64,000 nucleotides of DNA from the NCBI GenBank assembly GCA_903835655.1, contig CAILNT010000056.1, forward strand, positions 62,001 through 126,000, in the 5' to 3' direction. The notes beneath the pieces were generated by a model that was not told the origin of the DNA, made no database searches, and saw only the letters and a program-made list of their open reading frames with translations. This document shows positions 3,893 through 18,203 of this stretch, piece after piece. The stretch is from an uncultured Pseudomonadota bacterium. Its GTDB lineage: Bacteria; Pseudomonadota; Gammaproteobacteria; Burkholderiales; Thiobacillaceae. Both the position numbers and the translations under genes were made by a program. How positions within the stretch are numbered: position 1 is the first letter of the stretch; every line of letters begins with the position of its first letter.

Positions 3893-3958
3893 GCCGAGAG
3901 TAGAGAGTCGAGCGTGGTGAGTAGCCCCCCTCGGCTCTTGGCTCTCGGCTCTCGGCTC
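3893..3958. repeat. Heptamer-iterated inverted repeat between ndk and rlmN
   Basis: The left arm (from 3893) reads GCCGAGAG followed by related gag/tcg units. The right arm (3930-3958) repeats CTCTCGGC in overlapping registers (3942-3949 and 3949-3956), so the left octamer can pair with more than one right copy. The right arm is composed of roughly 7-base units, like the repeat between ispG and hisS but with a different unit sequence. The element sits immediately upstream of, or within, the 5' end of rlmN. Confidence 0.7.
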
Positions 3959-5110
3959 AAATTGCAAAACCTACTCGACCTCGACCTCCCCGGACTCGTC
4001 GCTTTCTTCGAAAGCATCGGCGAGAAGCCGTTTCGCGCCCGCCAGGTGTCGCACTGGCTGCATCAGTACGGTGCCGACGACTTCGCGCAGATGACCGATC
4101 TGGCCAAGTCGCTGCGCGCCAAGCTGCCCGAAGTGGCGGAGATTCGTCCGCCCGTGCTGGGCCACGAACAGGTGTCCGACGACGGCACGCGCAAATGGCT
4201 GCTGGAAGTCGGCCCCATGAATCGGGTCGAGACGGTGTTCATCCCGGAAGCCGAACGCGGCACGCTGTGCATCTCGACCCAGGTGGGTTGCGCGCTGGAG
4301 TGCGCGTTCTGCTCGACCGGGCGGCAGGGTTTCAACCGCAACCTGTCGGTGGCGGAAATCATCGGTCAGCTCTGGTGGGCCAACAAGGCTCTGGGGCGCG
4401 ATCCCCTCACCCCCCCCGCTCTCGAGCGAGGGGCACTTCAAGAGCCGCTGCGCGGCTTTGGCAAGGACGCTGAACGCATCATCTCCAATGTCGTATTGAT
4501 GGGCATGGGCGAGCCCCTGCTCAACTACGACAACACCGTGGCCGCCGTGTCCCTGATGCTCGATGACCACGCTTACGGCCTGTCGAGGCGGCGCGTTACC
4601 ATTTCCACCTCCGGCATCGTGCCGGCGATGGACCGGCTGCGCGCGCAGATGCCGGTGGCCCTGGCGGTATCGTTGCATGCGCCCAACGACGCTTTGCGTG
4701 ACCAGCTGGTGCCGATCAACCGCAAATACCCCCTGAAAGAGCTCATGCCCGCCTGTCAGCGTTATGTCCAGGACGGCCCGCGCGACTTCATCACCTTTGA
4801 ATACGTCATGCTCGACGCCGTCAACGATCGGCCCGAGGATGCGGAAGCCTTGCTGCGGCTTACCCGCGATGTGAGCTGTAAATTTAATCTGATCCCCTTC
4901 AATCCCTTCCCGAACTCCGGCTTCCGTCGTTCGCCGTCGGAGGCCGTGCGGCGCTTCGCCAGCATCCTGATGGGTGGGGGCAAGATCGCCACCACGCGCA
5001 AGACGCGCGGCGAGGATATCGACGCCGCCTGCGGGCAGTTGGCCGGTCAGGTACAGGACAAGTCGCGGCGCGTGATCAACCGCATCGAGCAATTCATGGG
5101 GGAGACATGA
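3914..5110 (+). CDS. rlmN: Dual-specificity 23S rRNA/tRNA adenine C2-methyltransferase
   Basis: A radical-SAM methyltransferase of 398 aa from this GTG. The iron-sulfur cluster motif C-x3-C-x2-C is CALECAFC at residues 126-133, followed by [21 protein letters not shown] and the C-terminal [11 protein letters not shown] with the methyl-accepting cysteine. It methylates A2503 of 23S rRNA and A37 of some tRNAs. Two oddities are visible. The first 16 or so codons run through a heptamer repeat, so the true start may be the TTG near 3962, just before [12 protein letters not shown], where family homology begins. About 20 extra residues ([19 protein letters not shown]) interrupt the usual GRDP...RIISNV stretch and are encoded by palindromic DNA. 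The gene overlaps pilW by four bases. Confidence 0.95.
4402..4470. repeat. Palindromic repeat absorbed in frame inside rlmN
   Basis: Two stem-loops lie back to back: CCCCTC (4403-4408) can pair with GAGGGG (4428-4433), and AGCCG (4443-4447) with CGGCT (4453-4457). The stretch encodes residues absent from RlmN proteins I know and keeps the frame open. It reads like a REP-type intergenic element that inserted into the gene without breaking it. The exact boundaries are estimated by comparison with family memory. Confidence 0.6.
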
Positions 5111-5877: not shown

Positions 5878-6872
5878 GCGTGGTGGCGCAATCTGTGACA
5901 TCCATTTTTTTTCCGGGGTTCGGCGCGAAGCTCAAGGCCGCGCGCGAATCGCTCGGCCTTTCCGCGGCCGCGGTGGCAGCCAAGCTCAAGTTGGGCGAGC
6001 GCCAGGTCCTTGCCATCGAAGAGGAGGACTTTGCGCGGCTGCCGGGCGAGATCTTCGCTCGCGGCTTCGTCCGCAACTACGCGCGTCTGGTCGGTGTCGC
6101 CCAGGAGCAATTGATCGTCCCGGTGGAGAGCCACGCAGTCGTATCCGAGACCGTTACCGCACCAAGCGAAGGCGTGATTTTTTCCTCGCCGGGATTGCGT
6201 CGCTGGGTCTTGCTGCCGCTGCTGGCGCTGGGCTTCTTCGTCCTGTTGGTGGCTGTGCTCTACTATTGGTTGCGCCAGGGCGAGGACACCCTGGTCGGCG
6301 AGCGGGCTCCACCCGCAGCGGCCATGGCTCCGCGCACAGTGTTGCCCACCCCGGCACCCGCAGCGCCGGTCGCGCCGGTGCCCACGCTGTCCGTGGCTCC
6401 CGCGGCACTCGCGCCCGCCGACATGGCTCCGTCCATCCCCGTGGGCATGCAACCGCTACCCGTGTCCCCGCTCCCGCCCGCACCCCAGGCCAAACCCGCT
6501 CTGCCGAGTCCCGCCCCCGTGGTACCCCAGGCCAAACCCGCTCTGCCGAGTCCCGCCCCCGCGGTGCTCCAGGCCAAACCCGCTCTGCTGAATCCCGCCC
6601 CCGCAGTGCCCGCCGAGGCTGCAACGTCTCCCGGCCGGGGCCATGCCCTGCGTTTCTCGCCTGCCCTGGATGCCTGGATCCAGGTCGTGGATGGCAAGAG
6701 CCGGCATTTTTCCAAGCTGGTGCGCGCTGGCAGCGTCGAGACCTTTGCCGGCGATCCTCCATTCCGGTTGGTGGTGGGAGAGGCCGCGCAAGTGGATCTG
6801 ATCTACGACGGCCGCCACGTCGATCTCACTCCCTTCATCGGGCAGAAGGTCGCCCGGCTCACCCTGGAATGA
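5874..6872 (+). CDS. rodZ: Cytoskeletal transmembrane protein RodZ
   Basis: This 332-aa protein has the full RodZ layout: an N-terminal cytoplasmic helix-turn-helix domain (about 17-80, [20 protein letters not shown]), one transmembrane helix (about 110-133), a periplasmic Pro/Ala-rich linker, and the C-terminal DUF4115 beta domain (about 258-332). RodZ links MreB filaments to the elongasome and sets rod shape. I start at ATG 5874, which overlaps the pilW stop, rather than at the upstream ATG at 5832 inside pilW. The linker contains three tandem 14-residue repeats. ispG follows after seven bases, as in many proteobacteria. Confidence 0.93.
6483..6608 (+). repeat. Three tandem 42-bp repeats in rodZ linker
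   Basis: Units at 6483-6524, 6525-6566 and 6567-6608 encode [14 protein letters not shown] and two slightly diverged copies. The first two are nearly identical at the DNA level, so copy number may vary between strains. The repeats lie in the disordered periplasmic linker and keep the frame. Confidence 0.9.
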
Positions 6873-14661: not shown

Positions 14662-15840
14662 GTGTTTGAACGTCCAGAACATGGGCAGGCTGTCATCCTG
14701 GCCTCGATCGATTTCGGTGATCCGGATTATGCGGAAGGCTTGGCCGAGCTCGTGCTGCTCGCCACCAGTGCCGGCCTGAATGTCGCCGGCGTGGTCGAGG
14801 GCAAGCGCGGCAAGCCCGACGCCGCGCTCTTCGCCGGTTCCGGCAAGGCCGATGAAATCGGCGATGCTGCCCGCGCCGCCGATGCCTCCCTGGTCATCTT
14901 CAATAACAACCTGTCCTCGGTTCAGGAGCGCAACCTGGAAAAGCGCCTGCAATGCCGGGTGCTGGACCGGACTGCGCTGATCCTCGAGATCTTCGCCCTG
15001 CGCGCGCGCAGCAACGAGGGCAAGCTCCAGGTGGAATTGGCGCAATTGCGGCATTATGCCACCCGGCTGGTGCGCGGCTGGACTCACCTGGAGCGCCAGA
15101 AGGGTGGGATCGGCATGCGCGGCGGTCCGGGCGAGACGCAGTTGGAACTGGACCGACGCATGATCCTGACCAAGATCAAGGGCATCGAGGTCCGGCTGGA
15201 GAAGCTGGCCAACACTCGTGCGGTGCAGCGCCGCAGCCGGCAGCGCAGCGGTGTCCTGTCGGTCTCCCTGGTGGGCTACACCAACGCCGGGAAGTCGACG
15301 CTGTTCAACACCCTGACCCGTGCCGGCGCCTACGCCGCCGACCAGTTGTTCGCCACCCTCGATACCACCACGCGCAAGCTCTGGCTGCCGCAGGCAGGAC
15401 AACCCCTGCTGCTGTCGGATACCGTCGGTTTCATCACCCGATTGCCGCACGCGCTGGTTTCCGCCTTTCACGCTACCCTGGAAGAGACCATCCACGCCGA
15501 TCTGCTGCTGCACGTGGTCGACGCCGCCAGCTCGAATCGCGAACGCCAGCGGGTCGAGGTGGAGAAGGTGCTGAAGGATATCGGCGGGGACCAGGTACCG
15601 CGCATCGAGGTTATGAACAAGGTCGATCTCACCGGGGTCGGCCCTCAGGTGGCGCGGGACGAGTATGGTAAGATCGCCGCCGTTTGGCTTTCCGCCAGGA
15701 CGGGCGCCGGAGTGGATCTGCTCCGCGATGCCATCGCCGAGTTTGCCTGTGATCAACGACATGAAACCCAAGTACTGGCGGCTCAAGAGGCCGAACTTTC
15801 TCAAAGCTATGTGGAAACCAATCTCGATGGCCTGGAATGA
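14662..15840 (+). CDS. hflX: Ribosome-rescue GTPase HflX
   Basis: The 392-aa protein starts at a GTG one base after the hfq stop. It has an N-terminal HflX domain, the glycine-rich linker GGIGMRGGPGETQLELDRR (near residue 150), and a G domain with GYTNAGKST, DTVGFITRLP and NKVD. HflX splits stalled 70S ribosomes, notably after heat or antibiotic stress. The last 14 bases overlap the start of hflK, suggesting coupled translation. Confidence 0.96.
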   Translation: MFERPEHGQAVILASIDFGDPDYAEGLAELVLLATSAGLNVAGVVEGKRGKPDAALFAGSGKADEIGDAARAADASLVIFNNNLSSVQERNLEKRLQCRVLDRTALILEIFALRARSNEGKLQVELAQLRHYATRLVRGWTHLERQKGGIGMRGGPGETQLELDRRMILTKIKGIEVRLEKLANTRAVQRRSRQRSGVLSVSLVGYTNAGKSTLFNTLTRAGAYAADQLFATLDTTTRKLWLPQAGQPLLLSDTVGFITRLPHALVSAFHATLEETIHADLLLHVVDAASSNRERQRVEVEKVLKDIGGDQVPRIEVMNKVDLTGVGPQVARDEYGKIAAVWLSARTGAGVDLLRDAIAEFACDQRHETQVLAAQEAELSQSYVETNLDGLE

Positions 15841-17041
15841 CCCGCAGTGGGGTGGTGGCGGCAACAAGAATTCCGGTGGGCCGCCGGATCTCGATGAGCT
15901 TTGGAAGAACTTCAACCGCCGCCTGAATGAACTGTTCGGCAACAAGGGCGGCGACAAGGAGCCGCAGCCGCCGGGTGTGGGCGGCAATCGCGAATTCAAC
16001 ATTCCCGGCGGCATCGGCCTGCTGCTCGCGCTGGCGCTGCTGGTCTGGCTGGCCTCCGGTTTCTACATCGTCGATGCGGGCGAACGCGGCGTGGTGTTGC
16101 GCTTCGGAAAATACCTCGAAACCACCGATCCCGGCCCGCGCTGGCATTTGCCTTATCCCTTCGAGGATGTCGAGACGGTCAACGTCGAGCAGGTACGCAC
16201 CGTCGAGGTGGGGTATCAGCACAACGTGAAATCCAAGCTGCTGTCCGAATCCCTGATGCTGACCGACGATGAGAACATCATCGATCTCCAGTTCTCGGTG
16301 CAGTACCTGCTGAAGAATCCCGAAGACTATCTCTTCTCCAGCCGTAACCCGGATGAGGCGGTGAAGCAGGCCGCGGAGACCGCGATGCGCGAGATCGTCG
16401 GCAAGAGCAAGATGGATTACGTGCTCTACGAAGGGCGGGCGAACGTCGCCATACGCGCCACCCAGTTGATGCAGCAGATTCTCGATCGTTACAAGACCGG
16501 CATCACGGTCAGCAAACTGAACATGCAGAATGCGCAGCCGCCCGAGCAGGTGCAGGCTTCGTTCGACGACGCGGTGAAGGCCGGCCAGGATCGCGAACGC
16601 CTGAAGAACGAGGGCCAGGCCTACGCCAACGACGTCGTTCCCAAGGCGGGTGGGGTGGCCGCTCGCTTGGCCCAGGAGTCGCAAGGCTACAAGCAGCGCG
16701 TGGTGGCGCAGGCGGAGGGCGAGGCTTCGCGCTTCAAGCAGGTGCTGGCGCAGTATTCCAAGGCGCCGCAGGTCACCCGAGAACGCTTGTATCTGGACGC
16801 CATGCAACAGGTTCTTTCGAATACCACCAAGGTGATGGTGGATGACAAGCAGGGTGGCAACCTGCTCTATCTGCCTCTGGATAAACTCATGAACATGACC
16901 CAGCAGGGCGCGGCCCCGACGCAGGTCGTCCCGCAACAGGTCGAACAGGCGCCACAGCGCCAGGACAGCACCACGCGCGGCGATGAACTGTCCCGCTCGC
17001 GCGATGCTTTCCGCAACCGTGACCGAGAGTCCCGGCCATGA
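15827..17041 (+). CDS. hflK: FtsH-modulating membrane protein HflK
   Basis: HflK, 404 aa, with a Gly-rich cytoplasmic N-terminus (MAWNDPQWGGGGNKNSGGPP), a transmembrane helix at about 62-84, and a large periplasmic SPFH/prohibitin domain ending in a Gln-rich tail. With HflC it forms a cage around the FtsH protease. The ATG at 15827, inside the last codons of hflX, gives the family N-terminus; the frame stays open upstream but encodes no HflK-like residues. The stop codon TGA at 17039-17041 lies within the left ATGAT target duplication of the inserted element that now separates hflK from hflC. Confidence 0.96.
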   Translation: MAWNDPQWGGGGNKNSGGPPDLDELWKNFNRRLNELFGNKGGDKEPQPPGVGGNREFNIPGGIGLLLALALLVWLASGFYIVDAGERGVVLRFGKYLETTDPGPRWHLPYPFEDVETVNVEQVRTVEVGYQHNVKSKLLSESLMLTDDENIIDLQFSVQYLLKNPEDYLFSSRNPDEAVKQAAETAMREIVGKSKMDYVLYEGRANVAIRATQLMQQILDRYKTGITVSKLNMQNAQPPEQVQASFDDAVKAGQDRERLKNEGQAYANDVVPKAGGVAARLAQESQGYKQRVVAQAEGEASRFKQVLAQYSKAPQVTRERLYLDAMQQVLSNTTKVMVDDKQGGNLLYLPLDKLMNMTQQGAAPTQVVPQQVEQAPQRQDSTTRGDELSRSRDAFRNRDRESRP

Positions 17042-17042
17042 T

Positions 17043-17321
17043 CCTTGAATCCTCAGTTGAACACGCCCGAGTGTGCTTATGGCGAGTTGTCTGGCAAGGC
17101 GCGACGACGCGCATGGTCGCTCCCCGCAAGGAGGAGCAGCGGAGTCGTTGGCGGCTCGTCCGCCGTACGAATCCGGCGTACCCCGCGCGGGTACAACGCA
17201 GCCAGGCTTGCAACAGGGTGCGTAGCGGGTTCACCCAAAGGGTGAGCGCAACCGAAGGCGCAATCCTCAATATCCATGGGGCCTCACGGGGAAAAATGAG
17301 CGATCAACTGAGGAATCAAGG
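17043..17321. mobile_element. MITE-like element between hflK and hflC
   Basis: A 279-bp insertion with 18-bp terminal inverted repeats: the left end CCTTGAATCCTCAGTTGA (17043-17060) and the complement of the right end (17304-17321) differ at one position. Both sides carry the 5-bp direct repeat ATGAT (17038-17042 and 17322-17326), as expected of a target duplication. Removing the element and one copy restores ATGATG, in which the hflK stop overlaps the hflC start. Internal hairpins include GTACCC/GGGTAC (17178-17183, 17089-aligned partner at 17189-17194) and TCACCC/GGGTGA (17231-17236, 17240-17245). No transposase is encoded, so it must have been mobilised in trans. The family is unknown; a CCT end with a 5-bp duplication is compatible with IS1380-type elements, a weak guess. 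Confidence 0.85.
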
Positions 17322-18203
17322 ATGATGCTGAAAAATCCCGCAATCGCCATCGTCGGCCTGGTCGTGGCCTTGTTCATCGCCTCGTTGTCACTGTACACGG
17401 TGGATCAGCGCCAGGCAGCCCTGGTATTCCAACTGGGTGAAGTGGTTGCCATCGAGAAGATCCCCGGCCTCTACTTCAAGCTGCCCCTGGTGCAGAACAT
17501 TCGTTATTTCGACACCCGCATCCTGACCCTGGATCCCGTCGAGCCGGAGCGCTTCATCACCTCCGAGAAGAAGAATGTGCTGGTGGACTACTTCGTCAAG
17601 TGGCGCATCAAGGATGTCGAGAAGTACTACGTCAGCTTCAACGGCGACGAGCGGCGCGCAGTCAATCGCCTGGCGCAGACGGTCAACGATGGCATGCGCG
17701 CCGAATTCGGCAAGCGTACCGTGCATGACGTGGTGTCCGGCGAGCGCGACGACGTGATGTATTCCCTGCGCAAAAGCGCGGATGCCGACGCCCGCCGCTT
17801 CGGGGTGGAGGTGCTGGATGTGCGCATCAAACGGGTCGATCTGCCCGCCGAGGTGAGCGACTCGGTCTATCGCCGCATGGAGGCGGAGCGCAAGCGGGTG
17901 GCCAATGGGCTGCGTTCCACCGGTTCCGCCGAGGCGGAGAAGATACGCGCCGATGCCGACCGGCAGCGCGAGGTGATCATCGCGGGCGCTTATCGCGATG
18001 CCCAGCGTGTCAAGGGTGAGGGCGACGGCCGCGCCTCCGAGATCTACGGCGAGGCCTTTGGCAAGAATCCCGAGTTTTATTCCTTCTACCGCAGCATGGA
18101 AGCCTACAAGCAGAGTTTCTCCGGCAAGAGCGACGTGATGGTGTTGCAACCCAATTCCGAGTTCTTCCGCTACATGAAATCCTCGCGTGGCGCCGGCAAA
18201 TAG
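17322..18203 (+). CDS. hflC: FtsH-modulating membrane protein HflC
   Basis: HflC of 293 aa: an N-terminal membrane helix (about 7-24) and an SPFH domain with VDQRQAALVFQLGE and RIKRVDLPAEVSDSVYRRME, ending in the usual SEFFRYMKSS. It is the partner of HflK. The start ATG at 17322 lies in the right target duplication of the inserted element, and its best Shine-Dalgarno sequence (GAGGA, 17310-17314) lies inside the element's right terminal repeat. Expression of hflC relative to hflK may therefore have changed. A truncated DUF2065 gene follows directly. Confidence 0.96.
   Translation: MMLKNPAIAIVGLVVALFIASLSLYTVDQRQAALVFQLGEVVAIEKIPGLYFKLPLVQNIRYFDTRILTLDPVEPERFITSEKKNVLVDYFVKWRIKDVEKYYVSFNGDERRAVNRLAQTVNDGMRAEFGKRTVHDVVSGERDDVMYSLRKSADADARRFGVEVLDVRIKRVDLPAEVSDSVYRRMEAERKRVANGLRSTGSAEAEKIRADADRQREVIIAGAYRDAQRVKGEGDGRASEIYGEAFGKNPEFYSFYRSMEAYKQSFSGKSDVMVLQPNSEFFRYMKSSRGAGK

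Follow-up and report, generated by a model that had tools for sequence, protein, structure and literature searches.

A mobile element of 279 bp (17043-17321) splits the ATGATG stop/start overlap of hflK and hflC in the window, the whole 64-kb stretch of DNA analysed here. It is probably a non-autonomous, MITE-like member of a large proteobacterial family whose insertions at start codons are survivable through a ribosome-binding site borne by the element's ends. The features of the junction, by position in the window, are:

15827..17041, + strand, hflK (Pfam Band_7 and HflK_N; start taken from a simple gene caller)
17025..17029, + strand, GAGAG, remnant of the native hflC Shine-Dalgarno sequence (GGGAG in the sister genome G008)
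17038..17042, + strand, left target-site duplication ATGAT, which retains the hflK stop
17043..17060, + strand, left terminal inverted repeat, CCTTGAATCCTCAGTTGA
17061..17181, + strand (the hflK-hflC strand), conserved folded core, degenerate in the window copy (covariance model R1, 58.3 bits, E = 1.2e-11)
17304..17321, - strand, right terminal inverted repeat, one mismatch to the left repeat
17310..17314, + strand, GAGGA, proposed new hflC Shine-Dalgarno sequence, 7 bases before the ATG
17322..17326, + strand, right target-site duplication ATGAT, which provides the hflC ATG
17322..18203, + strand, hflC (Pfam Band_7)

HflK and HflC, which flank the element, are both intact Band_7 proteins, and the hflK stop TGA (17039-17041) lies within the left duplication. 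The neighbourhood order is hfq-hflX-hflK-hflC, in which hfq and hflX are putative names given to the translations. The original prediction had described inverted ends of 18 bp with one mismatch, an ATGAT direct repeat on both sides and internal hairpins. Sequence comparison bore out the ends at 17043-17060 and 17304-17321 (24 nt at 92% with the flanks counted), ATGAT is present at both 17038-17042 and 17322-17326, and internal folding was confirmed with z = -5.35, none of 200 shuffles being equally stable. Within the 64-kb window, the end sequence (≤3 mismatches) occurs at these two places only, with 0.05 occurrences expected by chance, and 16950-17450 yielded nothing resembling a promoter or a terminator.

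The hflK/hflC junction of sister genome G008, the nearest relative (HflC 97% identical), aligns through with a single ATGAT and no element, thereby representing an empty site; therefore, 284 bases were indeed added at ATGATG, as had been proposed. None of the 29 relatives compared, G008 included, carries the element at this junction (the 30 returned loci minus that of the genome under study; 61 genomes had a match). Judging from these alignments, the insertion is later than the split from G008. The empty site, the 5-bp target duplication and the multi-copy family described below support the earlier view of a MITE-like insertion placed exactly at the overlap.

The other copies expected in the same genome (3.67 Mb) do exist: the end sequence gave 106 matches with ≤3 mismatches, 51 forward and 55 reverse, vs 0 for its reversed control. 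Among the regions fetched from this genome, 32 two-ended copies were found, 19 of them with perfect 5-bp duplications, and the elements have the properties of MITEs, being short, multi-copy and without a transposase gene, with terminal inverted repeats and target duplications. Matches at the DNA level were obtained in 32 of 61 genomes searched, including 22 of 23 genomes in the genus (counting the genome under study). Several of its contigs, such as C100, C104, C13, C58, C116 and C121, end 136-141 bases inside a copy, so that near-identical copies have probably broken the assembly and led to an underestimate of the copy number. Two full-length members queried against 72,556 plasmid records and one of them queried against 50,697 phage records generated no match, and exact CCTAGAAACCTCAGTTGGAC was not found in viral contigs.

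Target sites were analysed in the 68 copies whose duplications are perfect, 19 from the genome under study and 49 from relatives, after removal of one wrongly paired row of L235. The duplications follow the consensus W-T-N-A-W, with T in the second and A in the fourth position invariant, a pattern to which ATGA conforms, whether as an overlap or as a start, as do the stops TGA and TAA. As a null, all occurrences of the target 5-mers within those sequences were taken, empty sites were rebuilt, and genes were called on them with a simple, purpose-written caller using codon usage and Shine-Dalgarno matches. Insertions within coding sequences numbered 7 of 68 vs 47.2 expected. Among the 61 non-coding insertions, 20 had a start codon exactly within the duplication (6.1 expected, P = 1e-6), 15 had a stop codon there (5.1 expected, P = 1e-4), and 8 had both (2.0 expected, P = 7e-4). 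The excess was weaker in the genome under study alone, with 7 of 17 at starts (2.9 expected, P = 0.018) and 4 at stops vs 1.5 expected (P = 0.06). Among the interrupted genes are those for a cytosol aminopeptidase, two histidine kinases, an outer membrane efflux protein, a phosphoesterase, a pyrophosphatase and MlaE; as hflK and all nine downstream genes tested contain Pfam domains, the interrupted genes are real. In a scan of the order, counting open frames only and without a null, a frame of >100 codons ended in the duplication in 6 of 17 elements with usable duplications, and in two of these six (L417 and L423) a long open frame also started there.

Variation at the element ends provided a natural control for a link between insertion site and translation, and makes the idea testable. 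Read outward, the ends contain GAGG or GAGGA 7-8 bases before the duplicated start, and in some family members CGGC, CAGC or CCGC replaces the CCTC of the ends; predicted pairing with 16S rRNA is -5.9 to -7.3 kcal/mol for ends with the signal vs -1.8 to -3.4 kcal/mol for the other cores. The end signal was at least as strong as that of the average gene (median -5.8 vs -4.9, P = 0.005). The pooled set comprised 125 copies, with three copies of mixed ends set aside. Copies were counted if they were 100-450 bp long, had at most one mismatch between their duplications and ended at least 250 bp from the edge of the fetched stretch; those with weak ends or with identical flanks were dropped. Among non-coding insertions, exact starts accounted for 26 of 72 where the ends have the Shine-Dalgarno core and for 2 of 29 where they lack it (P = 0.003); at stops there was no difference (23/72 vs 11/29, P = 0.64). 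The difference at exact starts was also found with perfect duplications only (19/56 vs 2/22, P = 0.045) and at ATGAN sites only (23/33 vs 1/5, P = 0.05), where 31% of background sites are starts. New ATGAN loci were sorted by hand by the gene-facing end; of the 51 new loci, 18 that lacked a second end or a duplication and another 3 located within genes were left out. With the new loci added, starts made up 29 of 42 ATGAN sites with the signal and 3 of 12 without it (P = 0.009), counts that omit three loci whose gene-facing end is atypical (L356, at a start, and L359 and L362, elsewhere); placing these in the signal-less class gave 4/15 starts, and P was 0.04 when one start three bases off was counted as a match. 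These comparisons are to be read with two differences between the end classes, namely their phylogenetic spread and their target mix (ATGAN sites in 33/72 with the signal vs 5/29 without). The pattern suggests that end signal and start-codon placement are linked across the sequenced copies, members with the signal being enriched at starts and members without it not.

The following course of events is proposed. A transposase supplied from elsewhere would insert the element at a 5-bp W-T-N-A-W site, duplicating the 5 bp, and the ATGAT of a stop/start overlap would be a suitable target. After insertion the upstream gene would keep its TGA in the left copy and the downstream gene its ATG in the right one, so that neither protein would change. 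The inverted ends would place GAGG or GAGGA 7-8 bases before the duplicated ATG and thereby give the displaced gene a substitute ribosome-binding site, which would make start-codon insertions survivable and hence account for their excess. The excess would then reflect survival rather than targeting. An ordinary MITE with an A/T-rich target, which has no link to translation, survives wherever no protein is broken and carries GAGGA incidentally, is a possible though unlikely alternative: it agrees with the strong depletion of coding insertions, with a stop enrichment that is independent of the end signal, and with a predicted fold that buries the signal (see below), but it leaves unexplained that starts are still threefold enriched among non-coding sites of the same 5-mers and that this enrichment is confined to elements with the signal.

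At hflC itself, the native Shine-Dalgarno sequence lies inside hflK and reads GGGAG in 27 of 29 relatives and GAGAG in the genome under study, a change that is synonymous in hflK (CGG to CGA, Arg) and that adjoins changes common to the sister. Predicted anti-Shine-Dalgarno pairing is -8.9 kcal/mol in the sister, -4.2 kcal/mol for the native upstream region here, and -6.7 kcal/mol for the GAGGA of the element. These modelled values and the lost GGGAG fit a replacement of the hflC signal. Across 26 interrupted starts, native signals showed no weakening relative to the full set of starts (P = 0.45; compared with random sequence, P = 0.10). General decay of the native signal was thus not found, and the loss at hflC is one case.

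When the mRNA was folded with the signal taken as 17309-17313, one base to the left of GAGGA, the signal was predicted to pair with the left end in a stem formed by the two ends, with an unpaired probability of 0.00; a ribosome placed on the hflK stop released it weakly, raising the predicted value to 0.09. The original prediction that the right end supplies the hflC ribosome-binding site is supported indirectly. In its favour are the start enrichment of family members with the signal and the loss here of the old core kept in most relatives; the buried signal and the lack of general loss at interrupted starts count against it for hflC itself. HflC would presumably be translated from the element-borne site. 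That the insertion instead uncoupled and lowered hflC, with the old coupled start 284 bases away and the new signal locked in a stem, we hold to be unlikely; the near-zero accessibility of the signal, even with a terminating ribosome, and the loss of the old GGGAG would favour such an outcome, but hflC is intact and its product 97% identical to that of the sister, giving no sign of decay, and the family excess at starts suggests that insertions of this kind are tolerated.

The interior of the element is a conserved, covarying and strand-specific fold, as judged from aligned copies. In 31 elements, 23 of 59 pairs showed changes on both sides, and 96.7% of alignment cells paired vs 31-40% when the pairing partners were slid, a comparison favoured by prediction of the structures from the same alignments. 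G-U pairs outnumbered A-C mismatches in the interior by 165 to 13, which indicates that one strand is the folded one. The scan of the order yielded elements with both ends at 25 of 30 loci (a few of them from the genus of the genome under study), 233-237 bp in length and 62% identical on average. With four more elements added to these 25, 39 of 59 pairs carried double changes, 96.3% of cells paired vs 36-42% slid and 80.8% shuffled, and double changes occurred in 240 cells, compared with no more than 50 after sliding and 77 after shuffling; here too the structure had been predicted from the alignment itself, to its advantage over the slid versions. In searches with a 120-position core model, matches were obtained in 89 of 399 genomes from the order (48 of 159 genera) and in 46 of 369 from the class (37 of 272 genera). 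The window copy, which was not in the sequence set behind covariance model R1, is by its sequence a longer, degenerate derivative of the 234-bp family core. A search of Rfam (release 15) with 16700-17700 of the window gave 0 matches at E ≤ 1, and 15 related loci at E ≤ 5 gave one tRNA and three matches far below the cut-offs, none inside the element; the family is thus a widespread folded one without a match in that release. It may be as DNA, in transposition, that the fold has its role, or else as RNA.

The core hairpin (CAAGGCGCG ... AAGGAnnnGCAACGC) was also observed within inverted ends that have no relation to those of this family, as in some of the weaker matches at class level:

L460, 1479-1736
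L462, about 1400-1690
L464, 1478-1737
L467 (Halomonas sp. PA16-9), about 3903-4168

In L460, L462 and L464 the core is present once on each strand. The core of L460, lying between other ends, matched 2 of 72,556 plasmid records, from Halomonas sp. PA16-9 and Methylophaga frappieri, and L459 had no match in plasmid or phage records.

A more speculative reading, which we consider distinctly unlikely, is that the element acts as a mobile module of folded RNA that preserves operon function: the end stem would juxtapose stop and start across 284 bases and hide the Shine-Dalgarno sequence until upstream termination releases it, so that coupling survives, and the core would be a separate module, as if taken up by several unrelated mobile elements (L460, L462, L464). 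Insertions at starts showed no orientation bias (15 vs 14; under a second score 14 vs 11, with 4 left unscored), an argument against a role as RNA in cis that depends on one strand. Insertions at stop codons only were mostly antisense (14 vs 1, 5 unscored). This was rejected as a sign of function, because it is explained by the target: in insertions outside genes that touch no start or stop, the centre base in the frame of the element was a pyrimidine in 33 cases and a purine in 11 (P = 0.001).

Such orientation by the centre base of the target, together with the strict W-T-N-A-W consensus that contains ATGA, TGA and TAA, would also fit a transposase that actively preferred start and stop regions, e.g. 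through transcription or a DNA feature, with survival playing no part. This is very unlikely, since the same 5-mers elsewhere, used as the null, still leave an excess, and under targeting there would be no reason for the end signal to matter. Finally, that the 279 bp are an ancestral spacer or regulatory RNA conserved in the hflKC operon rather than an insertion can be dismissed despite folding better than shuffles and the conserved family core fold, as the element has many copies at other loci and the empty site in G008 and the 29 of 29 relatives without it refute ancestry at the junction, the outcome that the original prediction had named as fatal to an insertion.

For the preferred reading, a non-autonomous element surviving at starts through its ends, we infer that a transposase supplied elsewhere mobilises it. 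The nearest candidate by end sequence and duplication length is the IS1380 family, in that IS1380 ends and those of the element begin CCnTGAATCC and both have a 5-bp duplication. Duplications of 5 bp are listed for IS1247 (Table 2 of PMC3281130); this length is not specific to the IS1380 family. An IS1380-type IS in relative G016 (L189 1249-2968, ends CCCTGAATCCGCARGTT) has ends similar, not identical, to those of the element and lacks a 5-bp duplication itself. A search of draft assemblies for an IS1380-type transposase (PF13701) with the ends of the element found none in the genome under study, 23 genomes of the genus and 117 of the family, the first of which gave one PF13701 match. IS1380 loci were rejected as partners on checking end matches in 19 and any inverted ends in 15, all of which had other ends; no IS1380 element among the loci examined has the exact ends of the element. 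Long end-to-end pairs appeared as three rows at two places. No transposase was recognised at either of them (ORFs read by eye): one spans a sugar-transferase-like gene, and the other is 586 bp long without an ORF >119 aa. The IS with matching ends asked for by the original prediction was thus not found among the IS1380-type loci and end-to-end pairs examined.

ERIC and REP/BIME are folded repeats placed between genes that act on mRNA. Their sequences are other ones, and they are not known to be placed at start codons with a substitute Shine-Dalgarno sequence. MITEAba12 (PMC6382973) and BOX/RUP (PMC3049150) are likewise short, without a transposase gene, with inverted ends and target duplications, and present in many copies near genes. 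Unlike these, the present family keeps one covarying interior fold at nearly one length across bacterial families, and there is a ribosome-binding signal in its ends that goes with placement at start codons; the folds of MITEAba12 are described as weak (PMC6382973), and reading frames created by pneumococcal BOX elements as without good Shine-Dalgarno sequences (PMC3049150). In the open-access literature, among the matches listed, there was no report of the element, of its ends, or of MITE ends giving Shine-Dalgarno sequences to starts, and matches to short strings in a sequence search of that literature concern other organisms or subjects, judged by title. New here are the target consensus with its start and stop excess, the dependence on the end signal, and the conserved covarying interior fold. 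They suggest a rule by which mobile DNA may enter gene-dense operons harmlessly, via stop and start codons, the duplication, and a ribosome-binding site in the ends.

Some copies depart from the usual form. L067 (3110-3159) and L068 (3053-3102) contain 50-bp hairpins composed of two family ends back to back with almost no interior. L227 contains a 586-bp element (2263-2848) whose ends are of the family type and whose ATGAT duplication is perfect; the core model did not match this element, and it has no internal ORF >119 aa. A shortened 132-bp copy in L085 (2917-3058) lies at an ATGA stop/start overlap upstream of a gene for a 981-aa SMC-like ATPase (AAA_29), which we take to be possibly a Wadjet-type defence gene. 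In L062, a lone family end repeat without a partner (5902-5925) has its Shine-Dalgarno sequence just before a start that lies 3 bases into the flank; the gene encodes 300 aa, presumably a XerD-like recombinase, and the end looks as if it had been kept after loss of the remaining element.
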